A stretch of DNA of 64,000 bases, taken from NCBI GenBank assembly GCA_001803165.1, contig MHAZ01000021.1:434001-498000 (forward strand), given 5' to 3'. The translations under genes and the position numbers were made by a program. Positions 1,365 through 57,597 of this stretch are shown here, piece by piece. Below the pieces are notes generated by a model that worked only from the letters and a program-made list of their open reading frames with translations, made no database searches and was not told the origin of the DNA. Position 1 is the stretch's first letter; the number at the start of each line of letters is the position of its first letter. The stretch is from Stygiobacter sp. RIFOXYC2_FULL_38_25 (GTDB lineage: Bacteria > Bacteroidota > Ignavibacteria > Ignavibacteriales > Melioribacteraceae).

Positions 1365-2633
1365 TTATTTTATCAACAACATTTTTTTAGTTGAAGAAAA
1401 ACTTCCGGCTTTTAACGTATAGAAATAAATTCCACTCGGTAGAGACGCCATATATGGCGTCTTTACATTAAACATTACTTTATAATTTCCCTGCTGCTTT
1501 AACTCATCAACAAGTGTTGCCACTTCGTTTCCCAAAACATCATATACTTTTAAGCTTACGTTGCTTGCCACTTGCAGTTTGTAGCTAATCGTAGTTTCCG
1601 GGTTAAACGGATTTGGATAATTCTGTTCTAATGAAAAATCGCTGCTTATATTTTCGTCTTCGATTGCAGAAGTAGAATTAATCTTTAATCTGTAAACTCC
1701 GGTAACCGCCTGCGATGAAGATATATAGCAGTACAAATAATCTTGTGTTACTGCTAGAAAATTATTTAGAGACGAGGTAATTGCCGTAGGAAGATTGTTC
1801 CCTGCTTCGCTCCAGTTGCTTCCATTGTTATCGGAAACAAAAATTTTAGCGCTTTGAGTTATTATATCATAATAATAAGTGAATATTTTCGTCCCCATTG
1901 AAATAGAACCTTTTGTGCCGGCAGTTATACCTAAACCGCCCGGAAAACCGGAAGCTATCTTTGTCCAATCATTGTTAACAAGTTTGAACATTCCAAATGT
2001 AGTTCCGTAGATTTCATTGTTGTGCGCTTGTACCGAACCAACGGCAATCGGAGGATTTTTTAATACCCAGCTAGCTCCACCATCGGCAGAAATGAACGAG
2101 CCCAGATTTACAGCACAGAACGCCATTGTATTTCCGACTGCTGCAAAATCTAGTCCTAAAACTTGGGCTTGTGTGTAATTGATATTGATTTGAGTCCAGG
2201 TGCTTCCATAATCAACAGATTTAAAAACAGCGTTCCTATTAGAAACCGCGTAAAGTGTAGTGCCGTCGGAAACCAACGACATTATCGCTCCACCGGTAAA
2301 AGCTATTCCCGGTTTTGCAGCCCACGTAACTCCATCATCCGCAGATACATAAATAGCATTCACCCCAACAATTGCGAAGACAAAATTTCCATGACCATGT
2401 ACATAGTAAACTTTATCCGGAAACTTATCTGCAATATTCGTCCATGTAGTTCCATTATCTGTGGAACGATAGACATACTGAGCCCCTTGATAACCATATA
2501 GGAATACCGTTGAACCGTGTACAGCCATTTGTCCGGTTGCACCAACAAAATAGCTTGCAACTTTTTCCCACTGGGCATTTATAGTAACTACAAACTGGAA
2601 AAGGAATAAAACTATTAACGACATTTTTCTCAT
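1365..2633 (-). CDS. T9SS-sorted propeller protein (BNR/Ycf48-like)
   Basis: A 422-residue exported protein. The signal peptide is MRKMSLIVLFLFQFVVTINA, cleaved before Q. Residues about 22-320 are short repeats with 'S.D.G.TW' Asp-box-like turns (STDNGTTW, SADDGVTW, SVDYGSTW, SADGGASW, SDNNGSNW), the pattern of BNR/sialidase-type and Ycf48-like beta-propellers. The last ~90 residues are a type IX secretion sorting domain (QNYPNPFNPETTISY ... SLPSGIYFYTL ... KKMLLIK). The start is supported by an AAAGGAAA ribosome site 7-8 bases upstream. The sorting domain contains residues NVKTPYMAS encoded by a palindromic DNA element. It is a tandem paralogue of the next gene (24 bases away). No catalytic residues were recognised; it is probably structural or binding. 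Confidence 0.85.
   Translation of the reverse strand: MRKMSLIVLFLFQFVVTINAQWEKVASYFVGATGQMAVHGSTVFLYGYQGAQYVYRSTDNGTTWTNIADKFPDKVYYVHGHGNFVFAIVGVNAIYVSADDGVTWAAKPGIAFTGGAIMSLVSDGTTLYAVSNRNAVFKSVDYGSTWTQININYTQAQVLGLDFAAVGNTMAFCAVNLGSFISADGGASWVLKNPPIAVGSVQAHNNEIYGTTFGMFKLVNNDWTKIASGFPGGLGITAGTKGSISMGTKIFTYYYDIITQSAKIFVSDNNGSNWSEAGNNLPTAITSSLNNFLAVTQDYLYCYISSSQAVTGVYRLKINSTSAIEDENISSDFSLEQNYPNPFNPETTISYKLQVASNVSLKVYDVLGNEVATLVDELKQQGNYKVMFNVKTPYMASLPSGIYFYTLKAGSFSSTKKMLLIK
1439..1466. repeat. 28-bp palindromic element, copy A, inside a T9SS gene
   Basis: The core AGACGCCATATATGGCGTCT (1443-1462) is a perfect 20-bp palindrome; with its flanks GTAG...TTAC it is nearly palindromic over 28 bases. 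It lies in frame in the sorting-domain region of the gene at 1365-2633 and encodes part of VKTPYMAS. Identical cores occur at 2736-2755 and 38899-38918, and a variant with a different centre at 40333-40360. Confidence 0.85.
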
Positions 2634-2657
2634 TACATTTTCCTTTCGGTTAAACCG

Positions 2658-3959
2658 CTATTTAATTAAAAGCATCCTTTTAGTTTCTGAAAAACTTTCC
2701 GCTTTCAAAGTGTAGAAATAAACACCGCTAGGTAAAGACGCCATATATGGCGTCTTTACATTAAACATTACTTTATAATTTCCCGGCTGCTTAAACTCAT
2801 CAACAAGTGTAGCAACTTCGTTTCCAAGAATATCATAGACTTTTAAGCTTACGTTGCTTGCTGCTTGTACCTTGTAGCTAATCGTGGTTTCCGGGTTAAA
2901 CGGATTGGGATAGTTTTGAGAAAGATCAAAATCTGCCGGAACTTCGGGGCTAGATTCATTAACCGAAGTAGTGGAATTTGTCATTTTGTAAACAGATGCT
3001 GTCGATCCGTTACTTTGATAGTCATACAAAAAAATATTTTGAGCTGTTAACACCAGCGAAGAACTGCTCGTTGCAGCATTCAGAGTAGTTAAACCGCTTG
3101 TAGAAATTGAATTCCAGTTAGCGCCATTATCACTAGAAGAGAAAATTGAAGCTTTCGAATCCAAAAACCCAATTATAGCTACATACAGCGAGTTACCATA
3201 AGCCGTTAATGCTTTCGAAATCTGAAATGATAGCGCATCGGGCAATCCTTTGCTAACACTTTCCCATGTTTTTGTAGAAGAATTAAATCTGTGTACACCG
3301 CTTCCCGATGTTATTCCATAGACAGAACCATTGAAATTAATTACATATGTTACAAAGAGCGCTGGGTTTCCTGGATTGTTAACTACCCATGTTTGTCCCC
3401 CATCAGTTGAAACAACTGCCCCGGTTCCTACAATAGTTGAAACCATTGTATTTCCGGAAGCGGCAAAGTAAGACATATTTCCACCAGCCGTTGTGTTAAT
3501 TATAGTTTCTATCCATGTTAAACCATTATTGGTTGATGCATAAAATGATTTTCTATTTGATACCGCATATAACTTATCTCCGTCAGACGTCATCCAAAGA
3601 ATTGCGCCGTTTCCGGTAACCGTTGGAATGCTTGACTTTAGCGCCCAAGTTTCACCACCATCTTTTGAAGAATAAATACTTTTGCCGGCATTAGCTGTCA
3701 GCGCAAATATTTCGTTTTTATAATTGAACATATAATAAACATCATATAGAAATTTACTTATGATGTCAGTCCAGGTTTTTCCGTTATCTATAGATCTATA
3801 AACGTGGTAACCACTAAATGATCCGTATAAAAATAAAGTAGCGCTATATGCATGTAATCTGCCTGATAACCCCACGTTTTGCGTACTCACTTTTTCCCAC
3901 TGTGCATTTATCTTTATTCCGAACACAAGTACAAGCGCTAATAGAAGTTTTATTTTCAT
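2658..3959 (-). CDS. T9SS-sorted propeller protein, paralogue of the neighbouring gene
   Basis: A 433-residue exported protein when started at the ATG ending at 3959, which gives a clean signal peptide (MKIKLLLALVLVFGIKINA) after a GGGTAA-type ribosome site; longer in-frame starts up to 4037 would bury the signal. Asp-box-like turns (SIDNGKTW, SKDGGETW, STNNGLTW, STDGGQTW, SSDNGANW) indicate a BNR/Ycf48-like beta-propeller, followed by the T9SS sorting domain (QNYPNPFNPETTISYKV ... SLPSGVYFYTL ... KRMLLIK). The last ~250 bases are almost identical at DNA level to those of the downstream paralogue, including the palindromic insertion, while the propeller regions have diverged. Function unknown beyond surface delivery or secretion through T9SS. 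Confidence 0.85.
   Translation of the reverse strand: MKIKLLLALVLVFGIKINAQWEKVSTQNVGLSGRLHAYSATLFLYGSFSGYHVYRSIDNGKTWTDIISKFLYDVYYMFNYKNEIFALTANAGKSIYSSKDGGETWALKSSIPTVTGNGAILWMTSDGDKLYAVSNRKSFYASTNNGLTWIETIINTTAGGNMSYFAASGNTMVSTIVGTGAVVSTDGGQTWVVNNPGNPALFVTYVINFNGSVYGITSGSGVHRFNSSTKTWESVSKGLPDALSFQISKALTAYGNSLYVAIIGFLDSKASIFSSSDNGANWNSISTSGLTTLNAATSSSSLVLTAQNIFLYDYQSNGSTASVYKMTNSTTSVNESSPEVPADFDLSQNYPNPFNPETTISYKVQAASNVSLKVYDILGNEVATLVDEFKQPGNYKVMFNVKTPYMASLPSGVYFYTLKAESFSETKRMLLIK
2732..2759. repeat. 28-bp palindromic element, copy B, inside a T9SS gene
   Basis: This copy is a perfect palindrome over all 28 bases: GTAAAGACGCCATA followed by its reverse complement. It sits at the same codon position of the sorting domain as copy A and encodes VKTPYMAS. 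Confidence 0.85.
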
Positions 3960-4004
3960 ACAACGGTTACCCTTCAATTTATTTTTTATTGTCATTAAAA
4001 AATC

Positions 4005-4067
4005 AAATGCGGACCCTTGTGTTTTCATCTTCAGCACCCTCTACCAAGCAAAAACGAATCCGCATTT
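4005..4067. repeat. Spaced inverted repeat in the gene gap
   Basis: AAATGCGGA at 4005-4013 is matched by its exact reverse complement TCCGCATTT at 4059-4067, with 45 bases between. It lies in the 132-base gap between the lipoprotein gene (ending at 4092) and the next leftward gene (starting at 3959). It could close a long hairpin in the transcript or act as a protein site; there is no T-run, so a simple terminator is not supported. Confidence 0.4.
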
Positions 4068-4091: not shown

Positions 4092-4862
4092 TTAATTCAC
4101 TTTTACGTTCACGCTTTTAACCATTTCTGAAACAAAGTAATATTTCTTTCCGCCGGCAGTTGTAAAGGAATAATTGTACTTAACAACAAAGATCATACAG
4201 TCTCCGCTAAAGCTTGCAAGATCAGCCGCAGGAATTGTATAGCTTCCATTATCAGCTACTTCCTGATAAACCTTAGCCTGACCTTTATTAGTAACGTTTA
4301 CAATTTGGATTAACGCTTTTGCTGATGATGAATTAGTCCATTTAACTTGAATACCGCTTGCTTTACTTACGCTTGCGTTTGCAACGGGAAGCGTTACATT
4401 ATAATTATTCGGGCTCTTTACACTTCCGGTAACGGCGGGAATTCCATTAGCACCGGCAACATTCCAATTATGGAAAACACCATTCCAGCTTAAACTAAGT
4501 TGGTTTTGAGGATTGTTTACATCCGGAGCCATATAATATGATTTGCCGCCTGAAGTAATTTTTCCCAGTGAGTTATTGTTTACCGTAACTGCGCCGGCAT
4601 CAACACCGCCGTTGAAAATTGCCGAAGCTGCATTTGTTTCAATTTCCGGAAAGCCGGCAATCGGTGCCGACATTAAGTAGTACATTGATACCATTGCGCC
4701 GCCGTAATCGGCTTGTGCAGAAAAACTTGGCATTGGCTGTCCGCTTGGATTTGAAATATCCGTAGTTGATGTGGATTCTGTTGGACTGTCTTCTTTTTTA
4801 CATCCCGTAATTGCCAAAACAAAAAGTGCCGTCACTACAAAAAGCAATTTTACGTGCTTCAT
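4092..4862 (-). CDS. Lipoprotein of unknown function
   Basis: A 256-residue protein with a lipoprotein signal: a hydrophobic stretch ending in LAITG-C21 (lipobox), followed by KKEDSPTES, a Ser/Thr/acid linker typical of surface lipoproteins. The mature part is rich in Asn, Ser, Gly and aliphatic residues with predicted beta character (GGKSYYMAPDVNNPQNQ, YVVKYNYSFTTAGGKKYYF). No catalytic motif or known family was recognised. The gene lies 12 bases downstream of a 70-residue receiver-like ORF and is probably co-transcribed with it. It may be membrane- or surface-anchored; substrate unknown. Confidence 0.75.
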   Translation of the reverse strand: MKHVKLLFVVTALFVLAITGCKKEDSPTESTSTTDISNPSGQPMPSFSAQADYGGAMVSMYYLMSAPIAGFPEIETNAASAIFNGGVDAGAVTVNNNSLGKITSGGKSYYMAPDVNNPQNQLSLSWNGVFHNWNVAGANGIPAVTGSVKSPNNYNVTLPVANASVSKASGIQVKWTNSSSAKALIQIVNVTNKGQAKVYQEVADNGSYTIPAADLASFSGDCMIFVVKYNYSFTTAGGKKYYFVSEMVKSVNVKVN

Positions 4863-5266: not shown

Positions 5267-7000
5267 CTAATCAGTAATCTCTAACTGCGAAATAAGCTTG
5301 TGGAGATGACTTCTGTTAATTCCAAGAATTTTAGCGGCTTCGCTCTTAGAGCTTACCTTTCTCAGCGTCTTTATCAAATACATTTTTCTAAATTCATCCT
5401 CTGCTTCTTCTAGTGTTTTCTCGGAGCTGGACTCAAAATCCTTAAACTCTTCCTTAAAAATTTCCGGCGGTAAATCATTTGGCATAATTATGTTTTCCTT
5501 AGAAAGAATAACGCAGCGCTGAACCACGTTTTCAAGTTCGCGCACATTTCCGGGCCAATCGTATCTTTCTAAAATAAAAAGCGCTTCTTCCGAAAATGAT
5601 TGTTGATTATCACCACTAGAAAATTTCTTCAAGAAGTATTTTGAAAGTTCTTCTATATCTTCTCGCCGTTCGCGCAACGGAGGCAGTACAATTTCTATTA
5701 CTTTTAAGCGGTAATACAAATCTTCGCGAAAAGCTTTTTCGGCAATCATTGCCCCAAGATCCCGGTTGGTTGCTGCAATAAACCTCACATCAATTTTTTT
5801 AGAATCTATTCCGCCGAGCCGTTCTATTTCTTTGGTTTGAATTACGCGTAAAAGTTTTGCTTGAAGATTTACACTCATCTCACCAATTTCATCAAGAAAG
5901 ATTGTTCCGCCGTCTGCGGTTTCTAGTCTGCCCGGTTTACTTTTTACAGCTCCTGTAAACGCGCCGCTCTCATATCCAAACAATTCCGATTCCAAAAGTT
6001 CCGATGGAATTGCGCCACAGTTTACCGCTACAAATGGTTTGTTTGCGCGTGAACTGTTGTTGTGAATTGCTCTTGCAAGTAATTCTTTGCCTGTTCCATT
6101 TTCGCCAAGAACCAAGACAGATGCGTTTGTATTGGATACTTTTGATGCGAGCTTTAGAACATTGAATAACTTTTTACTCTTTCCAATCATTTCATCACTT
6201 TTAAACTCTCTCCGAAGAAGTAAAAAATCTTGCTTCGGTTTTTCGCCCAGTTTTTCTTCCAGCTGCTGAATTTCGAGTGATACCTCAAGCCCCTTAACTA
6301 TTTGCTTTGCGAATGCAATTAAAAAAGTAAGGTCGGAATCTTTAAACGGCTTTGCTTTGTTGCGTCTGTCTATATAAACCGCGCCTAAAACCTTTTGTCC
6401 GGAAACCAAAGGAGCGCACATCGCCGCACTTAATCCAAGGGAAACAACGCTATGCTTAATGGAAAGCTCGTCTTCCATTTTAATATCATTTAATTGTAAC
6501 GGTTGAAGACTTGAAATTGTGTTTCCGATAATGCTCGTGCTCATTTCTTTGGCGCTCGGCATCGCATCGGGATCCATATTTTTTGAGACTATCGTTTCAT
6601 AGGCTTGCTTTTCATCCGTTAACACAATAAATCCTTCATCCGCTTCCAGTTCTTTAACAACCGTTTCAATGGCTTTTTCCATCAAAGAAATCATTTCGGT
6701 TTCGGATTGAAACATAATTCCGGAAGCATACAAGCGTTCGAATCTGGATTTTTCATCATTCAATTTTTCAATTTTGGATGCAAACAATTCCAATCCGTCA
6801 AGAACCTGATGAATCTCTTTACTAAGCTCCTTGTTAAACTCAAGAATTTTGCGAAATGTCTTATCAACTTGTTTATCTAACTCTTGATCGCCGGACTTGT
6901 TTTTAGCTCCCGCCGATAGTTTCATAAAATCTTCGGAAATTTTTGCAGTAAACTCCCCAAGCAGCTTGTTCAAAACTTGTCTTTTAGAAGAAGTGTCCAA
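5267..7000 (-). CDS. Sigma-54-dependent activator (GAF - AAA+ - Fis HTH)
   Basis: A 577-residue enhancer-binding protein. Residues ~1-75 are helical, ~80-230 form a GAF sensor domain ([12 protein letters not shown] ... [11 protein letters not shown] ... GAVYIDRRN), ~260-495 the AAA+ domain with Walker A GENGTGKE, the sigma-54 contact loop GAFTGA, Walker [13 protein letters not shown] and the R-finger region, and ~535-577 a Fis-type helix-turn-helix ([18 protein letters not shown]). It hydrolyses ATP to open sigma-54 RNA polymerase promoters; the GAF domain probably binds a small ligand or partner. It is divergent from glnB/K-porin-amtB, which suggests (NifA/NtrC-like) nitrogen control, but no GG-N10-GC promoter was found in the 276-base gap. 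The start at 7000 is a TTG. Confidence 0.9.
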
Positions 7001-11404: not shown

Positions 11405-14400
11405 TTAGCCCAACGATTCAATTATTTCCTGCACGGTTTGGAATCTCTTTTCCACATTTTTTTCAAGACATCTTAAAACCAGCGCCTCAAATTTAGGAGA
11501 AATTGCGTTATTTATTTCCGAGGGATGAGGCGGCACCGTATTAAATATTGAGTGAATAAGCGCAATTTCGTTTTCGCCATTAAAAGGAAGCTTGTTAGTT
11601 AGCATCTGATATAAAATTACGCCGAGAGAAAATATATCAACCCGGTGATCTACATTAATGTTTGTAACTTGTTCCGGCGCTACAAAACCAAGCGTACCAA
11701 CAACCGTTCCGAGTGTTGTCATTGTGCTCACCAGCGGAGATTTTGACAAACCGAAATCCATAATTCTAACATTGCCGGCTTCATCAAACATAATGTTTTG
11801 CGATTTCAAATCGCGGTGAATTATATCGTTTGAGTGAATTGTTCGAAGTCCGGAACAAATTTGTTTTGTTATTTCAATTACTTTCTCTTCGTTAAGCGGG
11901 TAATTCTTTTCTATAAATTCATGCAGTGTTCCGCCGCTAAGATATTCCATCGCCACAAAAGAATGTTCTGCTGTTTCACCAAACTCTAACACTTTAACAA
12001 TGTTTGGGTGGTTAAGCGACGAGAGCAATCTGCCTTCGCTCGCTAAACGTCTCCGGTTTTCTTCATCCTTAAGTAAGTGTGCGTTTAAAATTTTTACCGC
12101 TACTGTTTTGCCATCTTGCTTATCAGTTGCTTTATAAACTTTTCCCATACCTCCTTCACCAAGAATCTCCAACAATTTGAAATGAGATATGTAACTGCTC
12201 TCTTTTATTTCAACATAACGCACTGCGGCAAAAACAAATCCAAAAGCAAACAAGGAGGTTGACCCTATAGAAATTAACGATGAAACAAATTGCGGTTTTG
12301 TAATATTTAGATGAACGAGCAACAAATAGAACACTAAGAAGAACAATCCGATATAAACATGATAAGTAAGCTTTTTAACTTTGGTTTTTCTTCCATAAAA
12401 GAAGACGCTGGTAAGAATCAGAAGGATTATGAACAGCTTGAAGGTTTCTGTTTTCCAATCTATTAGCAGCAAGGTTCTTTCAAAAGATTTTTTTGCGAGG
12501 ACTAAAGTACTTTGCAAAAACGATGATTCGTTAACCTCAACCGTTGTGTTTCTTTCTGCTGTAACAATTTTTTCTATGCCGGAGGGAAACACAACTTTAA
12601 CTTGATATTTTAACCCGGGATCAATTCCAAAATGAATTACTGAATAATCTTCTTGTGAAAGGGAGTTAGAGCCAATTCCGTTTTGTCGAAGAGTTTTATA
12701 TACATTGGTTCCATCTTTGTCGAATCCAAGCAAATAAACTTTTGCGCCTATTGCATTTCTATTGCTTACATCACCAGACAGTTTTACTTTGATATAATTT
12801 TTCTCTGCTAAATTATTTCTGTACAAAGTTGTTCTATCACCTTTTCCAAGAGCTTCTCGTGAACTTCCGATAAACAAATCAATGTCGCCGTCGTTATCGT
12901 AATCAGTAAAGGTTGGGTTACCGGTAAAATCAACACCGACAGATTTTCCAACTTCGGTAAATTGTAGTTCCGGCGAATTGAGGAACAATCTCGAACCAAT
13001 AAATAAATCTAACCATCCGTCATTGTTTACATCGGCTGTAGCAATAACTCCGCCGGATGGTTCGGGATGAAAGAATTTCTCAGTAAAACCAACCGTAGCA
13101 GTTACATCCGTAAAATTTGCTTTACCATCGTTAAGCAAAAACTGAAGATTATACTCGTGGTTGAATATTACCAAATCCGGAAATCCGTCGTTGTTAAAAT
13201 CATTTGAGATTGATGCGTAAGCGGTTGGTGCCTTGTCCGTGTAGAAATTCCGGTCTTCTTTTATTTCGAATTTGAAACCGCCCTTGTTGATAAACAAATA
13301 AATGTGTTGATTATTTTCAGCCAGCTTATATGTAACCAGCACATCAATTAATCCATCGCAATTGAAATCGCTTAACGTTGTTCCATACGAACGGTGATTA
13401 ATTATTTTTTTTATTCCGGATTTGTCAAAAACATCTTCGAATTTGCCAACGCCATTATTCCGGAAGAGCATATCGTCAAAATTATAGTTGGAAAAATAGA
13501 GATCGAGATTTCCGTCATTATCAAAATCCGCCGCTTGAGAGGTAGATAAGTTTAAGTCGGTCTGTATAAATTTGGGATGAATGTAATCACCCGTATTAAC
13601 TTCTCTAAACTCAAATCCGCCGGTTCCAAACGAAAGTTTATTGTTAACATCATCAAGAATTTCAATCAAGTCCGCGTTGCCGTCATTATCAAAATCTGCA
13701 GAAGAAATTGTTTGAGCAATTCCCGGTTTTTGTGAAGAATAATCTCTCGTCACTTCCGAAAATAGATTTCCATTTTGGTTTCTAAAAATTACCGGAGGAC
13801 CATCTTCCAAAATTGTTGCTAAATCCGGAAAATCATCATTATCGAAATCTCTAAATATACCCGCTCTTCCTTCTTTGCGCAGCGAAACATTTGCGGTTAC
13901 ATCAGTAAAAGAAAATTTAAGACTTTGAGAGTTGGTATAAATTCCATTATCGCCAATCACCCAAAGTTTGTAAACCCCGTCTTTGGCTTTAACGGCATCG
14001 AGCGAAATAAAAGAATCTTCAAAGTTTTTTATAGCTGTGTTTTCAATCCAATTTCCGTTTTTGAATTCGAGTAAAGTCGAGCGCGCTCCGGCAATCCAAG
14101 CTTTGCTTTTGGAAACCGTTTTAACAGCATTTAGCGTAACGCGAAAGTTATTCTCTACTTTGATCCATTTCTCATTTTCGTACTTTAGAATTGTTCCGCG
14201 GTCACCAACAATCCAGCCGTAGTTTTCATCAACCATGGAAACGCTTTTTAGTTCATCCGTCGTCGGCGATTCGAATCTATTCCACTTACTGTTTTCATAT
14301 TTCAAAATGATTCCTTGCTTACCCACAGCCCATCCCGTGTTTTCCGAAATCATCTGAACATCGTGTAAGTCGCCAGCGCTATAGTTTTCGTTTCCCCTTC

Positions 14401-14971
14401 TTTTAACCGGACTGAATTGGCTTGTCCATTTCGCTCCATCATAATGAATAATATTTCCTTGCTGACCAACAATCCAAGCTTCTCCATTTTGCAAGACACT
14501 TATCGCGCTCCACATTGCATAATCTATATTATCCCACATTACCGGGGGAAGCGGAATTTCTTTTTTAGTGTTGCCTGATAAATAATATAGCCGCGGTTTG
14601 TATCTACCATAGTGCGTTTCGTGAATTACCCACCAAAATGAATTGCTATCATGTTGTGTAATAAAGGGAAAATCAGAATAGTCATGCTCGGAAACTGCGT
14701 TCCATTTACCATTATCAAATTTCAGCACTTTTCCTTTTACATTTTCCCCTTTACCTCGTGAAATTGCCAACCCATTTCCTTCATCAATCATTTTAATCTT
14801 CGCACCAAGATCAACGCTTGTCTGCTTAAACCAAACTTCGGACGGTTGCCCGCTCTCGCCACTAAATTCTTTATCAGCGCCATTACAGCTAATAAAAAGT
14901 ATTAAGGCGAGAAGAACAGCGAGTGCTTTAGTTGCGTTTTTAATCAAGTGTTCGGCTGTTTTTTCGTTCAT
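11405..14971 (-). CDS. Receptor Ser/Thr kinase with propeller, FG-GAP and UnbV ectodomain
   Basis: A 1,188-residue protein. From the N-terminus: a lipoprotein-like signal ending in LFIS-C29; residues ~40-370 Ycf48/BNR-like propeller repeats (GWIVGDRGTILKY, GWAVGKQGIILKY); ~375-720 at least seven FG-GAP/VCBS repeats with calcium-type loops (DFDNDGNADL, DVNNDGWLDL, DYDNDGDIDL); ~725-800 an ASPIC/UnbV domain; three hydrophobic segments between ~842 and ~920; and ~931-1188 a Hanks-type kinase with GEGGMGKVY, Lys960 (VAVK), HRDLKSQN (Asp1054) and DFG (Asp1072). With the N-terminus outside, three segments put the kinase in the cytoplasm. The ATG at 14971 is preferred to a GTG at 14998 because a promoter lies just upstream. 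The ligand is unknown. Confidence 0.88.
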   Translation of the reverse strand: MNEKTAEHLIKNATKALAVLLALILFISCNGADKEFSGESGQPSEVWFKQTSVDLGAKIKMIDEGNGLAISRGKGENVKGKVLKFDNGKWNAVSEHDYSDFPFITQHDSNSFWWVIHETHYGRYKPRLYYLSGNTKKEIPLPPVMWDNIDYAMWSAISVLQNGEAWIVGQQGNIIHYDGAKWTSQFSPVKRRGNENYSAGDLHDVQMISENTGWAVGKQGIILKYENSKWNRFESPTTDELKSVSMVDENYGWIVGDRGTILKYENEKWIKVENNFRVTLNAVKTVSKSKAWIAGARSTLLEFKNGNWIENTAIKNFEDSFISLDAVKAKDGVYKLWVIGDNGIYTNSQSLKFSFTDVTANVSLRKEGRAGIFRDFDNDDFPDLATILEDGPPVIFRNQNGNLFSEVTRDYSSQKPGIAQTISSADFDNDGNADLIEILDDVNNKLSFGTGGFEFREVNTGDYIHPKFIQTDLNLSTSQAADFDNDGNLDLYFSNYNFDDMLFRNNGVGKFEDVFDKSGIKKIINHRSYGTTLSDFNCDGLIDVLVTYKLAENNQHIYLFINKGGFKFEIKEDRNFYTDKAPTAYASISNDFNNDGFPDLVIFNHEYNLQFLLNDGKANFTDVTATVGFTEKFFHPEPSGGVIATADVNNDGWLDLFIGSRLFLNSPELQFTEVGKSVGVDFTGNPTFTDYDNDGDIDLFIGSSREALGKGDRTTLYRNNLAEKNYIKVKLSGDVSNRNAIGAKVYLLGFDKDGTNVYKTLRQNGIGSNSLSQEDYSVIHFGIDPGLKYQVKVVFPSGIEKIVTAERNTTVEVNESSFLQSTLVLAKKSFERTLLLIDWKTETFKLFIILLILTSVFFYGRKTKVKKLTYHVYIGLFFLVFYLLLVHLNITKPQFVSSLISIGSTSLFAFGFVFAAVRYVEIKESSYISHFKLLEILGEGGMGKVYKATDKQDGKTVAVKILNAHLLKDEENRRRLASEGRLLSSLNHPNIVKVLEFGETAEHSFVAMEYLSGGTLHEFIEKNYPLNEEKVIEITKQICSGLRTIHSNDIIHRDLKSQNIMFDEAGNVRIMDFGLSKSPLVSTMTTLGTVVGTLGFVAPEQVTNINVDHRVDIFSLGVILYQMLTNKLPFNGENEIALIHSIFNTVPPHPSEINNAISPKFEALVLRCLEKNVEKRFQTVQEIIESLG

Positions 14972-15003
14972 TAAGATTGGATTGCGATTGAATTTCACAA
15001 CCC

Positions 15004-47081: not shown

Positions 47082-49517
47082 TTATTCTTCTTCATCTTCC
47101 GGAATTACTCTTGCGATATCTGCAATCTCATCGCCTTCGTTCAACCGAATTAAGCGAACGCCTTGAGTGTTTCTTCCCATCACGCGCAACTCGCTAACTG
47201 CTTGTCTAAGAACCATTCCGCCGGTTGTAATGATTACAAGTTCGTCTCCGTCGTTTACTTCTTTCATCGCAATCATCTTACCGTTTCTATCGGAAGTCTT
47301 AACAGTAATTACACCTTTACCACCGCGTTTGGTTAATCTGTAATCTTCAATCTCAGAACGTTTGCCGAATCCTTTATCTGTAACAACCATTAACGTTGTT
47401 GCGTTGCGAACCACGATCATTCCTATTACATAATCTTTCTTGCCTAAGTTAATGCCGCGTACGCCGGTTGCGGTTCTACCCATATCGCGCACGTCGCTTT
47501 CCTTAAAGTGAATCGCCATGCCTTCGCTTGTTCCGATAATAATATCGTTGTTTCCATCGCTAAGTTTAGCTTCAACAAGACTATCTCCGGCGGCAAGATT
47601 AATTGCAAGAATTCCGCCGCGGCGAATATTTGAGTACGCCGAAAGAACAGTTTTCTTAACCGTTCCTTGCTTAGTAACCATTACAATTGATTTATCATCA
47701 ACGAATTCTTTCACTGTAACAAACGCCGTAATGTTTTCTTCTTTATCTTTTTCGATAAGATTAAGAATTGATCTTCCCTTTGTTGCGCGTCCTCCTTCCG
47801 GAATTTCGTGAACTTTGAGCCAGTAACATTTTCCGCGATCTGTAAAGAACATTATGTAGTGATGTGTTGAAGCAACAAACATATGCTCTATAAAATCTTC
47901 TTCTCGGGTTCCGGCGCCTGTAACACCTTTGCCGCCACGTCCTTGTTTGCGGTAACCGCTAACCGGGAAGCGTTTGATGAATCCGGCGTGAGAAATTGTT
48001 ACAACTACATCTTCTTCGGCAATTGTATCTTCCAAAGAAAATTCTTTATAGTCGTGAATAATTTCTGTTCTGCGTTCATCGCCGTATCTTTCTTTAATCG
48101 CAAGCAGTTCTTCTTTAATGATTTGTCTTCTCAACTTTTCATTACCGAGAATCGCTTTCAACTTGTTTATAAACTTGATTACTTCTTTGTATTCATCTTC
48201 AATTTTCTTTCTTTCTAAGCCGGTTAAGCGCTGCAATCTCATATCAAGAATTGCTTTGGATTGAATTTCGCTCAGCTTGAATTTGCGCATCAACGCTTGT
48301 TTAGCGGTTTCAACATCGCGCGATTTCTTGATGGTTTGAATTACTTCATCAATGTTATCAAGCGCAATTATGTAGCCTTCCAAAATATGAGCGCGGCGTT
48401 CTGCGGCATCAAGTTCAAACTTTGTTCTGCGAACAAGAACATCCATTCTATGATCTAAGAAGTGTTCCATCATTTGCTGAAGCGTAAGAACTTTTGGCGC
48501 GCCGTGAACTAGCGCAAGCATTATCACACCAAACGTAACTTGCATTGATGTATGCTTGAACAAATTATTAAGAATTACAGCCGGCTGTCCATCACGTTTC
48601 AGCTCAATAACAACGCGCATACCATCGCGGTCACTCTCATCACGTAAGTTGGAAATTCCTTCAATTTTTCCTTCGCGCACTAACTCTGCTATTTTTTCAA
48701 TCAGCGTTGCTTTATTTACTTGATACGGTAGCTCTGTGATAACAATGTTTTCTCTATCGTTCTTAAGCACTTCAACATTGGCTTTGGCGCGTATTACAAC
48801 TCTTCCTCGTCCGGTTAGAAATGCATCTTTAACACCTTCATAACCATAAATAATTCCTCCCGTTGGAAAATCGGGAGCTTTAACAATCTTAAGTATTTCT
48901 TCCGGTTTGGTTTTTGGATTATCAATCAACAGAATCAAACCATCTATTATTTCTCTCAAGTTGTGCGGCGGAATGTTTGTAGCCATACCAACTGCAATTC
49001 CGCTTGCACCGTTTACCAACAAGTTTGGCAAATAAGATGGCATCACTAACGGTTCTTGAAGCGAGTCATCAAAGTTTGGCCCGAAGTCAACAGTGTTCTT
49101 ATCAAGATCGCGAAGCATTTCTTCTGCTATTCTTGCAAGGCGCGCTTCGGTATAACGCATAGCTGCCGGACTGTCGCCATCCACCGAACCAAAGTTTCCT
49201 TGTCCATCTACCAACGGATAGCGCAGCGACCATTCTTGAGCCATGCGCACCATTGAATCGTAAACAGCAGTATCTCCGTGCGGGTGATACTTACCAAGAA
49301 CCTCTCCCACGATACGGGCAGATTTTTTATACGGTTTGTTGTGCTGAACGCTCAGTTCATGCATGCCATACAAAACTCTGCGGTGAACCGGTTTGAGTCC
49401 ATCTCTCACATCGGGCAGCGCGCGGGCAACAATAACGCTCATCGCGTAGTCTATGTAAGACGATTTCATTTCTTCTTCTAGTGAAACGGGTACTACTTTT
49501 TCAAAAATTGTGGTCAT
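47082..49517 (-). CDS. gyrA: DNA gyrase subunit A
   Basis: An 811-residue GyrA. The catalytic Tyr122 is in AAMRYTEAR, the quinolone-resistance region reads [17 protein letters not shown] (Thr83, Asp87), and the C-terminal beta-pinwheel contains the GyrA box QGRGGKG. With GyrB it adds negative supercoils using ATP. Length is normal. It ends in EDEEE. Its start codon lies inside one copy of a 47-bp direct repeat (49511-49557), so the gyrA leader has been duplicated around the MntA/HepT pair upstream. gyrB lies two genes further upstream. Confidence 0.97.
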
Positions 49518-49557
49518 GTTATTTCTTGTTTAGGATTTTGATTTATTATTTAATTCT
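49511..49557. repeat. 47-bp direct repeat, copy 1 (spans the gyrA start)
   Basis: The copy begins TGGTCATGTTATTTCTTG and ends ATTTAATTCT; it contains the gyrA start codon (ATGACCA on the minus strand). It matches 50199-50245 at 46 of 47 positions (one G/A change at 49540 and 50228). Confidence 0.9.
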
Positions 49558-49890
49558 TTTTAACATCTCTTTTATTTGTGGTTTTAAAAGCGGTAATTGT
49601 TTGTTTACGATAAACCATGTGTTGCTCAAGTCTACTTTGAAGTACTCGTGAATAACAATATTTCTAAAACCAATTATTTTCTTCCATGGAATTTCCGGCG
49701 ATTGTTTTCTTAACTCCGCCGGTAAGTTTTTGGCAGCCTCTCCTATTATCTCAAGGTTGCGAATAATCGCATCCGCTACTAGTTCGTTGTTTTCTAATTT
49801 TTTCTGTGTATATCCTTCGGTATATTTTTCTATTCTTTTAATGCACTCCAAAATGTCGTCGAGAAACAGCTTATATTCTCTCTTAGACAT
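49546..49890 (-). CDS. hepT: HepT-like (DUF86) toxin
   Basis: A 114-residue all-helical protein of the HepT/DUF86 family with the HEPN RNase motif R-x4-H at Arg76 to His81 (RNIVIHEYF). The ATG at 49890 (MSKREYK) has AGAGG seven bases upstream; a start 21 bases earlier is less likely. It is the toxin (an RNA-cutting HEPN protein, in studied systems AMPylated by MntA) partner of the nucleotidyltransferase upstream, which it overlaps by 8 bases. The first base of its coding end is within the direct-repeat copy that adjoins gyrA. Confidence 0.88.
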
Positions 49891-50176
49891 ATAAAACCTC
49901 TTGTTTAACAAGTTTCCAGAGTTTTTTATTTCTTATTAATCCTTTTTTAAGAACTAGATCTACTTTAACACCTAGAAGTTTTTGCAAGTAATCTTGTAAA
50001 TCAACAACATCCCAGCCTATGGGTTTATAAAAATCAACAAGAACATCAAGATCACTTTTGGGAGTCTGTTCGTTGCGAACATAAGAACCGAACAAACCTA
50101 TTTCTTTAACGAAAAACTTCTCCGCTATTTCCGGTTTGTTCTTTTCTATTTTCTCTTTAATTGTATCGGTACTCAA
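49883..50176 (-). CDS. mntA: MntA-like nucleotidyltransferase antitoxin
   Basis: A 97-residue minimal nucleotidyltransferase with the signature G-S-x10-D-x-[23 protein letters not shown] (Gly30, Ser31, Asp42, Asp44; in parts). It pairs with HepT; in studied MntA/HepT systems the antitoxin adds AMP to the toxin. The two genes overlap by 8 bases. Upstream of it (50177-50300) is the second copy of the direct repeat. Confidence 0.88.
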
Positions 50177-50198
50177 AGAGTCTCCTTTAGACAGATTC

Positions 50199-50245
50199 TG
50201 GTCATGTTATTTCTTGTTTAGGATTTTAATTTATTATTTAATTCT
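50199..50245. repeat. 47-bp direct repeat, copy 2 (upstream of mntA)
   Basis: It matches 49511-49557 with one mismatch. The cassette between the two copies is exactly the MntA/HepT pair. Confidence 0.9.
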
Positions 50246-50300
50246 AATTTCTTTTCTTAATCATGCTCTTGATCTTAATCTTGATAGCTCCAGCTCAAAA

Positions 50301-51305
50301 TTATAATACCAACGCCGCTAAACCAAAATAAAACAGTATCGTACAAATATCTGTAAGTGCCAGCGTAATTGGTCCGGCAGCAATTTTAGGATCGAGTTTG
50401 GCTCTGTGTAAAATTGCCGGTACGCTCAATCCCCAGACAGAAGCAATCAACTGAATCAACACAACACTCAATCCAATTACTCCAGCTGCCGCTACATCAC
50501 CTTTCCAAACAACAACTACTGCAGTTACTACGGTAGCGCAGCTTAATCCAAGCATCAGCGCGGTTTGAGCTTCGCGTAAAAAGTTTTTTACAAACCACCT
50601 AAACGATGGCTTTGCAGTACGCAAAGCTTGTATCGTAACTGTCATAGATTGAATACTTACGCTTTCGCCAAGACCAAGAACCAATGTAAAAAAGAACACT
50701 ACTATTAAACTTTCTGCAAGCGTTGTTTCAAACATTCCGGTTAACAAAGCGCAGATTGTTCCGCTTGTTACCGTTGCAAAAAGCCACGGAAGTCTTACGC
50801 GCCAAGCTTTAACCGGCGAAGCATTTTTAACTTCGCTGATTTTAAAACCAATTGTTTCAAAGATCGAATCATAATCTTGCGGCTCTACTTCACTTGCCGC
50901 TTCAGAATCTTTTTCTTCCAGCAATTCATCAGTAAAAAGATTGACGTCAACTACACCTATCATTCTTCTCTCGGCATCTACCACAGGAAAAGCCAGAAAC
51001 TTATAAGTTGCAAAAAACTCCAGCGCATCATAAACCGTTGATGTGCCCGGCAGCGCCGCAACCCGCTTTACCATTATATCTTCAAGTTTTTGTTCTAACT
51101 TTCCAATCAACAATCTACGTGTTGGCAACACACCAACAAGCCTTTGCTCATCATCAACTACATAAAAGTAAACTATTCTTTCGCCAACGCCTTCAAGGCG
51201 AATTTTATTCAACGTTTCATCAACGGAAAGGTTTTTGTTTAGCGCGTTATAATCTTTTCGCGCGTAATCAACAACCGAATGATGATATGTTGATTTGTCG
51301 TTCAT
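50301..51305 (-). CDS. MgtE-type magnesium transporter lacking the N domain
   Basis: A 334-residue transporter. Residues ~15-135 form a pair of CBS domains (IVYFYVVDDEQRLVGVLPTRRLL; LAFPVVDAERRMIGVVDV), and ~165-334 contain five membrane helices of the MgtE channel: RLPWLFATVTSG, LVLGLGESVSIQSMTV, and ALTDICTILFYFG with the ion-coordinating Asp. The usual ~130-residue N-terminal MgtE N domain is absent. CBS domains act as a magnesium sensor that gates the pore. It lies 70 bases downstream of gyrB, in an unusual position within the gyr region. Confidence 0.85.
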   Translation of the reverse strand: MNDKSTYHHSVVDYARKDYNALNKNLSVDETLNKIRLEGVGERIVYFYVVDDEQRLVGVLPTRRLLIGKLEQKLEDIMVKRVAALPGTSTVYDALEFFATYKFLAFPVVDAERRMIGVVDVNLFTDELLEEKDSEAASEVEPQDYDSIFETIGFKISEVKNASPVKAWRVRLPWLFATVTSGTICALLTGMFETTLAESLIVVFFFTLVLGLGESVSIQSMTVTIQALRTAKPSFRWFVKNFLREAQTALMLGLSCATVVTAVVVVWKGDVAAAGVIGLSVVLIQLIASVWGLSVPAILHRAKLDPKIAAGPITLALTDICTILFYFGLAALVL

Positions 51306-51319
51306 GTTAGGGACAGAAT

Positions 51320-51367
51320 AAGATTATGAACAAGAGCATGATTCTTCTTGTTCTTAATCATAATCTT
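51320..51367. repeat. Imperfect palindrome after gyrB
   Basis: AAGATTATGA (51320-51329) pairs with TCATAATCTT (51358-51367) and CAAGA (51331-51335) with TCTTG (51346-51350). It lies between the gyrB stop and the MgtE start. A related 'CTTAATCATGCTCTTGATC' string is at 50256-50274 near the repeat copy 2. Confidence 0.55.
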
Positions 51368-51375
51368 ACTCTTGG

Positions 51376-53642
<2,267 letters not shown>

Positions 53643-53668
<26 letters not shown>

Positions 53669-54758
53669 TATCCACTTTTATTAAAACGTTTCCGTTGCTA
53701 AGATTTAATTCTTCCGTGCGAGTTAGGTCTGTCATCGTTATGAACGTTTGTCCAATAGACGAAACGTGATCGCTTATTCTTCCGGCCCGGTAAGAATCAA
53801 GTTCGCCAAAAACATCATCCATTAAAAAGATTGGCGTTCTTCCAATTTTATCTTTTATGAAAAAGAACTGCCCGAACCGCAGCGCAATCTGAAAAGTTTT
53901 ATGCTGCCCTTGCGAACCAAAACGTTTCAATTCCAAATCATTGATGTAAAAAAGAAAATCATCTCTGTGTGGTCCTACTAAATTCTGCGCACGGCGTAAT
54001 TCATCTTCGCGGTATTGATTTAACTCATCTCTAAACTTATCAGGCGCATCATCTTCGTCCACTCCGGGAATTGAATCGTAACTAATCTTCGGATATTCTT
54101 TGTCTTCTACTATTTGGTTGTAGGCTTGGATCAGATATTCATTAAACTCATTAACAAAACTAATTCTGTGTTTAATTATTTCTGCGCCAATTCCTATTAA
54201 AGATTCTGTCCATGCTTCCAGCTGATTAAACAAACCCTTATCGCCGGTTTCCTTAATTCGCCACAATAGAGAGGAGCGCTGACGTAATATCTTGTTGTAC
54301 TCCAAAAGTATTTCTAAGTATGTATGGCTCGCTTGAGAAATTACCGAATCCACAAAGCGTCTGCGGTCTGCCGGCGCACCAAGAGTAATTGCATGATCGG
54401 CTTGTATCAAAGAAACCACAGGAAATTTACCTATTACCTCAGACGAATTAGAAACTTGCTTCTCATTCAAGAAGAAACTTTTCTTATTCTTTAGTGAATC
54501 ATAAAACAACCTAGTTTGGTTGGTCGTGAGATCAGCAAAGTTTCCTCTTACGTCAAAATTCTGTTCACCAAACAAAACCACATCACTCTCACTGGCGAGA
54601 TTAAGATTTTTAGTTGTACACAAGTAGTAAATTGCCTCTAAGATTGATGTTTTTCCCTGCCCGTTTCCGCCGATGATTAAATTGAGCTTATCGGAAAAAT
54701 TCAGCGATGTGTTTTTATGCAGCCTAAAGTTTTGCAATTCAATTTGCTTAAGAACCAT
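53643..54758 (-). CDS. recF: RecF recombination mediator
   Basis: A 371-residue SMC-like ATPase with Walker A GGNGQGKTS (30-38), the family motif RLFYDSLKNKKSFFLNE, signature SQGQHKTFQIALR, and Walker B PIFLMDDVFGELDSYR. RecF helps load RecA at gapped DNA and is standard next to dnaN. It starts one base after the dnaN stop, so the two are coupled, and it overlaps the DUF721 gene by 26 bases. Confidence 0.95.
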
Positions 54759-54759
54759 T

Positions 54760-55881
54760 TTAACTATTCAAACGCACCGGCATTAATAACATCATCATAT
54801 CAAGGCTTTCCTTCTTTTGTACCGGTTCTATTATCACCGCTTTTGTAGCCGAGTGAAGTCTGAAAGTAATTTCTTCTTCGCTGGAAATGTGGTTTAACAC
54901 ATCATTCACATAAGCGGAATTAAAACCTATTTCTAAATTATCGCCGGAGTAATCACAGGTTACTTTTTCTTCACCGCTTGCGCCTATGTCTAAATCTTCC
55001 GCAGATATTTCTACAGAAGTTTTTTCGATTGAGAATTTTACTCTGCGTGTACTTGAAGTTGAGAAGAGCATCATTCTCTTTATCGAATCGTGTAATTCTT
55101 TTGTGTTAACCTTCATTAAGTATTCGTTTTCAAGAGGAATAACACTTGCATAATCCGGATACTTTTGAGCTATCAATCGTGTAATTAATTCTATGTCGTT
55201 CAGCTTAAACGACATATATGATTTTGTCATATAAATCTTAGCATCTTTTTCATCAAGAATTTTGGTTAGAACAGAAACTGCTCTTTCGGGAACAACATAT
55301 TGGTTATTTGTAAGCGATTTTACATTCTTGTTTAACATGTTAACAAGTCTGTGTCCATCTGTGGTTACAAAGCGTAAGCCATCATTCGTAAATTCGAAAA
55401 GTGTTCCCATCATAGCCGGGCGCATTTCTTCTTTACTCATTGCAAAAGATCCGCGTTCGAATGCATGGCGTAATTCTACACCGTTTATTGTTACTTCGTT
55501 AATATCTTTATCTGCACTTAAAGAAGGAATTTCCGGATACTCATCCGCTTCCAAATAGCTGATTGTGTATTTACCTGCATCAGTAACCAAGTTAATTTTT
55601 TTGTTAGCCATCATCTTGAAGTGAATTGTGGTATCCTTTAAGGAACGCACAATATCATAGAGCAGACGGGCGGGAACCACCATTTTTATATTTTCATCTG
55701 TAACTATGTTTAATGCGGACTTAAGAGATATTTCCAAATCAGTCGCATAAATTGTTAGCAGACCATCCTTAACTTCAAAAAGAAAGTTTTCCAGAATAGG
55801 CATGGGTGTTCTGGTAGGAACTGCTGGAATGATTTTTCCAAGTAATTTTTCGAGTTCTTTACTATTTACTTTGAATTCCAT
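54760..55881 (-). CDS. dnaN: DNA polymerase III sliding clamp
   Basis: A 373-residue beta clamp, recognised by MEFKVNSKELEKLLGKIIPAVPTR, the three-domain repeat pattern, FVTTDGHRL, VVPARLL and the C-terminal LMPVRL that ends the family. Two clamps form a ring that holds Pol III on DNA. The ATG at 55881 has GGAG seven bases upstream; a TTG 12 bases earlier overlaps that site. It is downstream of dnaA with a 309-base gap that carries DnaA boxes. Confidence 0.96.
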   Translation of the reverse strand: MEFKVNSKELEKLLGKIIPAVPTRTPMPILENFLFEVKDGLLTIYATDLEISLKSALNIVTDENIKMVVPARLLYDIVRSLKDTTIHFKMMANKKINLVTDAGKYTISYLEADEYPEIPSLSADKDINEVTINGVELRHAFERGSFAMSKEEMRPAMMGTLFEFTNDGLRFVTTDGHRLVNMLNKNVKSLTNNQYVVPERAVSVLTKILDEKDAKIYMTKSYMSFKLNDIELITRLIAQKYPDYASVIPLENEYLMKVNTKELHDSIKRMMLFSTSSTRRVKFSIEKTSVEISAEDLDIGASGEEKVTCDYSGDNLEIGFNSAYVNDVLNHISSEEEITFRLHSATKAVIIEPVQKKESLDMMMLLMPVRLNS

Positions 55882-55969
55882 ATTAATCTCCAAGTGGCAT
55901 CAAAAAATATCAAAAATCGAGTAGAACTTCAATTTTACCCACATTTCTATCAACCCCATTATTATTAAT

Positions 55970-56189
55970 TAATGTATATAGTATATATATGTTATAATAA
56001 TAAGTATGTGGATATGTGGATTACTCTATTTAGTTCGTTATTTAGTCCATATAGTAAGAAAAATAGTAATAGCTATTAGCTGTGTATATGTGGATAAGTA
56101 ACAGTTATCCATGTGTTGATTAGTAAACCCAAGTTGCCAACATTTTTTTAACAAACCGCCCACACCTTTCCCACATCGAATGTTGATAA
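55970..56189. other. DnaA-box cluster and AT-rich element in the dnaA-dnaN spacer
   Basis: This is a spacer of 309 bases (55882-56190) between dnaA and dnaN. DnaA-box-like sites (TGTGGATAA family, minus-strand TTATCCACA) are at 56007-56015 (TGTGGATAT), 56015-56023 (TGTGGATTA), 56089-56097 (perfect TGTGGATAA), 56105-56113 (TTATCCATG), 56114-56122 (TGTTGATTA) and 56181-56189 (TGTTGATAA). The stretch 55970-56005 is almost all A/T (TATATATATG, TTATAATAATAAG), a plausible DNA-unwinding element. Together this suggests part of oriC lies here. Confidence 0.7.
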
Positions 56190-56190
56190 G

Positions 56191-57597
56191 TTAAGCTACA
56201 GATAATTCGATTTTACTCTTAATAGAATCTAACATTTCCTTCATTTTGAAATCTGTTTTAGCAGCTTCTTCTACAGAAGTCTGAGCGTGTATTACCGTGG
56301 AGTGATCTCTGCCACCAAAATGCAGCCCGATAGTTTTAAGAGAAGATTTAGTTAGCTGTTTAGCTAAATACATAGCTATCTGTCTAGCAAGCACCACTTC
56401 TTTGCGTCTGTTTTTTTCCCGGAGCTTATTTTCTTCTAACTCGAAATACTCGCACACAACTTTAGTAATTAACTCGATAGAAATATTAACCTGCTTATTG
56501 GTGGAAACTTCACGAACCGTTTTCTTAACTAACTCAAAATCAATATCTCGTGAAGTAAGAGAAGCATTAGCTAGTAGTTTAACTAAGCATCCCTCGAGCT
56601 CTCGAATGTTTGATGTAATATTATGCGCAATATACTCAACTATCTCCCGGGAAAGATTTATTCCGTAAGACTCACTCTTGTTCTTAAGGATAGCCGTTCT
56701 CGTTTCTAAATCCGGTGGCTGAATATCTGTCTGCAATCCCCACAAAAATCTGGAAACCAAACGATCACTCAATCCTTTTAAATCTTTCGGCGGTCTGTCG
56801 CTGGAAAGTATGATTTGTTTTCCGCTTTGGTGTAACGTATTAAAAATGTGAAAGAATAAATCTTGAGTTTTTTCCTTGCCTACTAAAAATTGAATATCGT
56901 CTATAATCAGCGCATCCATGCTTTTGTAAAAACTGGAAAAATCATTAACTGTGTTGGATTGAATTGCCTCAACAAACTCAACAGTAAAAGCATCGGAAGA
57001 AATATAAATTACTCTTTTTTCCGGCGCGCGCTCTAATATTTTATTCCCAATGGCATGTATAAGATGCGTTTTTCCTAAGCCAACACCTCCGTATATAAAA
57101 AGCGGATTGAACGAAGTGCTGCCCGGACTATCACCTACTGCATACGCCGCAGCGCGGGCAAGTTGGTTCCCTTCTCCTTTAATAAAATTATCAAAAGTGT
57201 ATTTGGTAATTAAGCAAGATTCAAATTCTTTTTGCGGTTCAGCAGCTTCGGTAATTACAGGTTTTCTATCCGGAAGAGTATTTTTTTCCGGCTCTGCTTC
57301 GTGTTCTTTTTCTTCAAGGATTACGTAAAGAAGCTTTCCTTCATGCCCCAAAACTTGGGCTACGGTATTTTTTATTAATGTGTTGTAGTGCTGTTCTATC
57401 CACTCAATAAAGAAATTGTTGGGAACAAACACCTTAAGCGTGTTTCCTAAAAAGTCGGAAGGCTTGATAGGGAGAAACCAGGTGTTGTAAGTTATATTGG
57501 GAACGTTTTCTTTAATTAAGCTTAAGCACTCTTTCCACACATCCTTTGCTTCTTTTTCAACACGCAAACTTTCGGCAGTATTTAGCATATTATCCAC
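56191..57597 (-). CDS. dnaA: Chromosomal replication initiator
   Basis: A 468-residue DnaA. Domain I starts VWKECLSLIKENVPNITYNTWFLP (in parts); domain III holds Walker A GGVGLGKTH (170-178) and Walker B DALIIDDIQFL; domain IV has the box-binding signature GGRDHSTVIHA. It binds DnaA boxes and opens oriC with ATP. The start is a GTG at 57597 that lies inside a perfect DnaA box (57590-57598), so DnaA binding may block its own translation start or transcription. No strong ribosome site is seen. Confidence 0.97.
   Translation of the reverse strand: MDNMLNTAESLRVEKEAKDVWKECLSLIKENVPNITYNTWFLPIKPSDFLGNTLKVFVPNNFFIEWIEQHYNTLIKNTVAQVLGHEGKLLYVILEEKEHEAEPEKNTLPDRKPVITEAAEPQKEFESCLITKYTFDNFIKGEGNQLARAAAYAVGDSPGSTSFNPLFIYGGVGLGKTHLIHAIGNKILERAPEKRVIYISSDAFTVEFVEAIQSNTVNDFSSFYKSMDALIIDDIQFLVGKEKTQDLFFHIFNTLHQSGKQIILSSDRPPKDLKGLSDRLVSRFLWGLQTDIQPPDLETRTAILKNKSESYGINLSREIVEYIAHNITSNIRELEGCLVKLLANASLTSRDIDFELVKKTVREVSTNKQVNISIELITKVVCEYFELEENKLREKNRRKEVVLARQIAMYLAKQLTKSSLKTIGLHFGGRDHSTVIHAQTSVEEAAKTDFKMKEMLDSIKSKIELSVA

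Follow-up and report, generated by a model that had tools for sequence, protein, structure and literature searches.

The window analysed here is a stretch of 64,000 nucleotides from Stygiobacter sp. RIFOXYC2_FULL_38_25 (contig MHAZ01000021.1, positions 434,001 to 498,000). It carries on its minus strand the gene of a large receptor Ser/Thr kinase and, downstream of it, the gene of a sigma54 activator, or bacterial enhancer-binding protein (bEBP). Comparison of genomes within the class revealed a near-exclusive pairing of the receptor kinase with this one bEBP, and we regard it as fairly probable that the receptor controls the bEBP as its dedicated activator, with sensor parts that can be exchanged. 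The features of the receptor gene, each with its evidence in brackets, are the following.

11405..14971, minus strand: receptor Ser/Thr kinase gene (open frame, 1188 residues from ATG)
14885..14971, minus strand: lipobox-like signal segment ending at Cys29 (Cys conservation among family members)
13937..14839, minus strand: Ycf48-like propeller, about residues 45-345 (PSII_BNR match)
12812..13924, minus strand: FG-GAP propeller with seven Dx[DN]xD-type loops, about residues 350-720 (FG-GAP_3)
12527..12796, minus strand: UnbV-like domain, about residues 726-815 (UnbV_ASPIC in relatives)
12221..12448, minus strand: three membrane helices, about residues 842-917 (hydropathy)
11420..12178, minus strand: Hanks kinase domain, residues 932-1184 (Pkinase, E 1.4e-64)

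Domain order and conservation of the receptor kinase

The coordinates and the length given in the initial annotation are correct, and the gene lies on the minus strand, the plus strand of 11405-14971 containing many stops. A GTG at 14998, nine codons upstream of the ATG, is a possible alternative start. The search for proteins of the same domain order, which had been suggested earlier, yielded orthologs with the same frame in 18 of 97 related genomes at an E value of 1e-100 or better, the own genome included. At 1e-90 the kinase was matched in 23 of the 391 genomes of a class sample and in 13 of the 395 genomes of a phylum sample, four of the latter forming a distant clade (family f21) that retains the length and the order at 25-28% identity. 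In addition, the record of an Ignavibacteria bacterium metagenome-assembled genome shows 86% identity over residues 1-716. Twenty full-length members were aligned, with three orthologs excluded (one with an internal stop, two partial).

The initial annotation had itself raised the possibility of an error joining two genes, or of a loss of catalytic residues in related copies. One ortholog (G004, locus L009) has a TGA in frame at about residue 62 and is otherwise intact, which would fit such a view. Against it, many genomes, those of the distant clade included, have the domains in this order within a single frame, and none of the catalytic residues varies among the 20 aligned members. Assembly fusion and a dead kinase were therefore rejected as extremely improbable.

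The signal segment is lipobox-like and Cys29 is a putative lipidation site. The Cys at its end is shared by all 22 full-length members that do not belong to f21 but is absent from all four f21 members, and Phe stands at position -3 of the window receptor, where a lipobox usually has another residue. The architecture does not depend on the lipobox-like signal, since the main clade retains it and the distant one lacks it.

The first propeller, read earlier from the letters alone, was recovered as PSII_BNR (Ycf48) in the window protein, with an E value of 2.4e-8 and 34 bits against a cut-off of 27, and in 16 of the 20 members. Two structure models were both poor, with a mean pLDDT (predicted local distance difference test) of 44 from one sequence and of 41 from two sequences. 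The best PDB matches of a low-confidence model of the propeller were Ycf48, a weak resemblance with a TM-score to the query of 0.26. The FG-GAP repeats were likewise borne out, FG-GAP_3 matching the window protein in 5 stretches (E 4.6e-31) and being present in 20/20 members. Of the calcium-type loops claimed before, at least seven in number, seven are present as Dx[DN]xD-type loops; the aspartates of four are invariant in 20/20 members (426/430/434, 482/486/490, 647/651/655 and 690/694/698) and the remaining three loops vary among them. The conserved loops, and the analogy with the calcium blades of PMC3123361, among them those of cartilage acidic protein, make it plausible that the FG-GAP blades bind calcium. 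The UnbV domain of the initial annotation held only in part: UnbV_ASPIC gave no match in the window protein itself, even at E 1, but matched seven of the 20 members with E values of at most 0.1, down to 7.2e-7, and the window protein aligns with these members across the region, which forms beta strands in the model of mean pLDDT 44.

Hydropathy analysis (19-residue mean over 1.5) finds the three membrane helices that had been proposed. Three C-terminal hydrophobic segments were found in 13 of the 20 members, the window protein among them, two segments in 2, one in 4 and none in 1. The topology is less sure in members with fewer than three, all four f21 members included, because fewer of their segments pass the threshold. 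Three helices after an exported N-terminus would place the kinase in the cytoplasm, in agreement with a Lys/Arg-rich loop behind the first helix.

The C-terminal position of a Hanks-type kinase behind the membrane segments was confirmed in a conserved domain order, with a Pkinase score of 218.5 bits against a cut-off of 31.7. Residues Lys960, Glu979, His1052-Arg1053-Asp1054, Lys1056, Asn1059, Asp1072 and Gly1074 are invariant in 20/20 members, and the f21 members have DLG in place of DFG. With a Pkinase match over cut-off and the catalytic Lys, Glu, HRD and DFG Asp, the domain is classed from its sequence as a Hanks-type kinase, and its residues indicate that it is likely active. The kinase part was unfolded in the first structure model (mean pLDDT 44). 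Sequence searches of the PDB returned nothing but kinases among the best 60 matches, PknB being the solved structure that best matches the kinase domain. In PknB the first Thr of the activation loop is phosphorylated, and Thr1085 of the receptor aligns with it. By sequence, the receptor has two propellers and a UnbV-like domain on the exported side, followed by membrane helices and, at the C-terminus, an intact kinase.

The receptor resembles the PknB/PASTA and PknD-type kinases in having a Hanks kinase inside and a sensor outside, and PknD is described in PMC6213207 as a membrane Ser/Thr kinase with an outside propeller sensor. In contrast to these kinases, the window kinase is C-terminal behind three helices and comes with two propellers and a UnbV-like domain instead of PASTA; the PASTA-kinase model NF033483 (Stk1/PknB equivalog, NCBIfam) scored 298.1 bits against a cut-off of 450, with the kinase part alone matched. 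CRTAC1-like proteins have UnbV behind an FG-GAP propeller with Dx[DN]xDG loops. The receptor family may share this arrangement, with FG-GAP in all 20 members and UnbV_ASPIC in seven, the window protein not among these; it differs in being joined to another propeller, to membrane helices and to a kinase. In the literature searched, which covered few of the subscription papers, neither a kinase with FG-GAP/UnbV nor a Ser/Thr kinase paired with a GAF activator was found, the former in line with the earlier remark that FG-GAP and UnbV proteins are rarely joined to kinases.

The partner activator and its pairing with the kinase

The sigma54-activator partner, which is most telling on function, had been missed by the initial annotation. 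The two further features of its neighbourhood are listed here.

5267..7000, minus strand: partner GAF-AAA+-HTH (helix-turn-helix) sigma54 activator (bEBP), 577 residues (Pfam GAF, Sigma54_activat, HTH_8)
4092..4862, minus strand: putative lipoprotein of 256 residues, a recurrent neighbour (6/18 loci)

The HTH_8 match of the bEBP, at 19.8 bits, lies below the cut-off of 22, and GAFTGA is present in 16/16 aligned orthologs. With a GAF domain, a sigma54-interacting AAA+ domain carrying GAFTGA, and an HTH, the protein is assigned to the GAF-type bEBPs (group 3).

Orthologs of the bEBP, full-length or contig-cut, were found at 4e-170 or better in the same 18 of 97 genomes as the kinase, while weaker bEBP paralogs (best 2e-97) occur in all 97. 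Two independent sets of 18 in 97 genomes would coincide with a chance of 6e-20, a figure that is too strong because of linkage and shared descent. In the class sample the bEBP was detected at 1e-120 in 24 of 391 genomes, all 24 with the kinase module, and at these thresholds 367 genomes have neither. The kinase is matched at 1e-90 in 23 of these carriers; the 24th, G625, has a C-terminal kinase part at a contig edge, adjoining the bEBP. In G702 separate contigs carry the kinase and the bEBP, and that of the kinase runs on for 47 kb downstream of it. Both genes are kept in this genome, and therefore close linkage alone fails to explain the pairing.

Comparison of the window with 17 ortholog loci (18 loci) revealed the bEBP as the one gene family besides the kinase that recurs in 17 of them, the exception being a contig that ends inside the kinase. 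Among 18 measurable kinase-bEBP loci (an f4 genome added, starts chosen by an open-reading-frame script), the bEBP follows the kinase in every one, downstream and on the strand of the kinase gene, with a gap of 31 bp or less in 12 loci, 112-728 bp in 3 and 2.6-4.4 kb in 3. The widest gaps belong to the three loci of this genus, in which glnB/porin/amtB-like genes, named by eye, lie between. These genes were rejected as a general operon context, as they are confined to this genus's 3/18 loci, and so was a CitMHS_2 transporter (Pfam), which is absent from gene clusters of three or more loci. The 256-residue putative lipoprotein has no Pfam match and is a possible member of the system.

The same loci bear on the view that the bEBP stands upstream, driving the kinase or envelope genes while the kinase acts on envelope proteins, which would be a regulon and no cascade. 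The shared neighbourhood and the putative lipoprotein gene nearby in six loci would suit it. However, the bEBP gene is the downstream one, in the same transcription direction, in 18/18 loci, and no sigma54-like site was found just upstream of the kinase or the bEBP with a consensus that may not hold here. We consider this arrangement quite improbable.

Two other parts of the window were read by eye. At 1365-4037 lie two tandem related genes (422 and 459 residues) whose products show Asp-box-like repeats and end in a tail of NYPNPFNPETTISY type, and at 47082-57597 gyrA-, gyrB-, recF-, dnaN- and dnaA-like genes, so that the window may lie near the replication origin.

Exchanged sensors, distant relatives and a second pair

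In one relative, G695, the match to the receptor is limited to residues 922-1183. Its kinase is 63% identical in a frame of 1100 residues, and its bEBP, 55% identical, starts 12 bp downstream of the kinase. The outer part holds six Reg_prop stretches and one Y_Y_Y domain (Pfam), the sensor type of hybrid two-component systems. In the kinase-domain tree (FastTree, midpoint root, support values not inspected) the G695 kinase is nested inside the receptor-kinase clade. We propose that the kinase and the bEBP can be a constant output module with an exchangeable sensor part. This sensor is also the only hint of the glycan sensing suggested earlier, a suggestion that is otherwise without direct support; the gene clusters of the 18 loci hold no consistent glycan-related neighbour, though the clustering itself names no functions.

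Family f39 comprises three genomes with kinase domains 51-52% identical and frames of 924-962 residues. By eye, one outer part resembles Reg_prop and Y_Y_Y, and the two others have similar beginnings; in one of these genomes a receiver-type activator lies on the opposite strand beside the kinase. In three of the four f21 loci (L050, L051, L053) the receptor gene stands tail to tail with an OmpR-like regulator gene, next to which is a membrane protein, by eye a putative histidine kinase. Side-by-side runs of several kinase genes were seen in G201:C2:41692-57568, G324:C19:63012-75289 and G060:C13:50514-62995, with frames of about 700-1200 residues and 38-46% identity to the kinase domain of the receptor.

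In the own genome (G000), 17 strong sigma54 activators were counted alongside 5 Pkinase genes, leaving aside five weak activator matches (21-35 bits). Its second GAF-type activator overlaps a kinase gene (L085, 6485-7975 (+) and 7936-9564 (+)). The 15 other activators are 11 of receiver type, 2 PAS-like and 2 with neither, their N-terminal parts judged by eye, and no kinase was found within their 4-kb loci. A same-strand kinase frame was present in 12/12 next-best bEBP loci (L072-L083, from 12 genomes without the receptor), which are the best-scoring loci returned and no random sample; these frames open from 82 bp before to 16 bp after the activator stop. In this second family the activator gene comes first and the kinase follows, and the kinases form a separate clade in the kinase-domain tree. 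By eye, the glycine-loop consensus is absent from them and HRDIKPEN is kept. A further gene of the same genome, L084 6645-8561 (-), has the reverse order of the receptor, with the kinase first, then a hydrophobic stretch (by eye) and a Ycf48-like propeller.

Proposed signalling and its significance

Based on the pairing, we propose the following course of signalling, in which the direction and the phosphorylation of the bEBP are inferred. A ligand, perhaps with calcium, would bind the propellers, and the change would cross the membrane helices and switch the kinase on. The kinase would autophosphorylate in its activation loop, with Thr1085 as the candidate, and might then phosphorylate the bEBP at its helical N-terminus or GAF domain. 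The bEBP would assemble and drive sigma54 promoters. Control of a dedicated bEBP by the receptor is favoured by the identical 18 of 97 genomes, the 24/24 pairing in the class, the short gaps, the separate contigs of G702, the exchanged sensor of G695, the second pair, the kinase gene beside the bEBP in 12/12 next-best loci, and the presence of one rpoN in the own genome.

Several points weigh against this proposal. The pairing may come in part from linkage and shared descent. The four f21 genomes with the receptor kinase (4/4) have no ortholog of the partner bEBP, and no kinase stands alongside the best-scoring GAF-type activators of these genomes (331-349 bits) within the respective loci; therefore the receptor can exist without this partner. 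In the three f39 genomes, no ortholog of the bEBP was found beside the kinase within 14 kb. The 4.4-Mb genome contains 0 exact TGGCACN5TTGCW sites, against 3 for the reversed control pattern; in view of the rpoN gene, the promoter consensus may differ in this genome. If two mismatches at most are allowed, 17 sites occur in the window where 28 are expected. When 19 loci were scanned with the consensus, four sites exceeded the threshold, two of which lie in L049, whose gene positions were not loaded, and no target was revealed near the pair. Moreover, GAF activators are usually ligand-controlled, and for group 3 the table of PMC7175178 gives ligand binding as the sole mode of control.

Such ligand control, together with the f21 receptors that do without this bEBP, also speaks for one task served by two chains, in which a small ligand bound to the GAF domain would switch the bEBP, as described for NorR and NifA, and the kinase would phosphorylate other proteins. 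The near-perfect co-occurrence of the kinase and the bEBP, even on different contigs, argues against this, as does the own genome, where both GAF-type bEBPs stand beside kinases and the 15 other activators have none in their 4-kb loci. Two separate chains are thus rather unlikely, and a kinase acting on its own bEBP is the reading we prefer.

The proposed kinase-bEBP line can be compared with known routes to transcription control. Hybrid two-component systems combine a histidine kinase and a receiver with a fused DNA-binding domain. The Bacteroides systems of this kind share transcription control as output and the Reg_prop/Y_Y_Y sensor of G695, whereas here a Ser/Thr kinase replaces the histidine kinase and receiver and the sigma54 activator is separate; Pfam matches to histidine kinases or receivers were absent from the receptor (E up to 1) and the bEBP (E up to 0.01). 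The group 3 bEBPs NorR, NifA and FhlA likewise have GAF, AAA+ and HTH domains, but the window bEBP is paired with a receptor Ser/Thr kinase. A likely precedent is given by the FHA-domain bEBPs of Myxococcus xanthus, for which input from Ser/Thr kinases has been proposed. No FHA domain is among the Pfam matches of the partner bEBP (E up to 0.01), and the pair raises the question whether a Ser/Thr kinase switches a bEBP without a receiver and, by Pfam, without FHA.

More broadly, and with a confidence just short of even, we suggest that Ignavibacteria and relatives have a modular class of receptor Ser/Thr kinases with exchangeable propeller sensors that phosphorylate dedicated GAF-type sigma54 activators. 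If true, it would be a Ser/Thr counterpart of two-component systems, and the second kinase/GAF-bEBP family, in the order of the own genome, would be a further branch. It would also be a mode of bEBP control outside the five groups in the table of PMC7175178, none of which is listed there as controlled by a Ser/Thr kinase. PMC4601284 describes the Ser/Thr kinases of bacteria as few per genome, with pleiotropic rather than exclusive targets. Here, a Hanks kinase would instead serve as a dedicated line from sensor to promoter, its sensor having been exchanged in at least one lineage.

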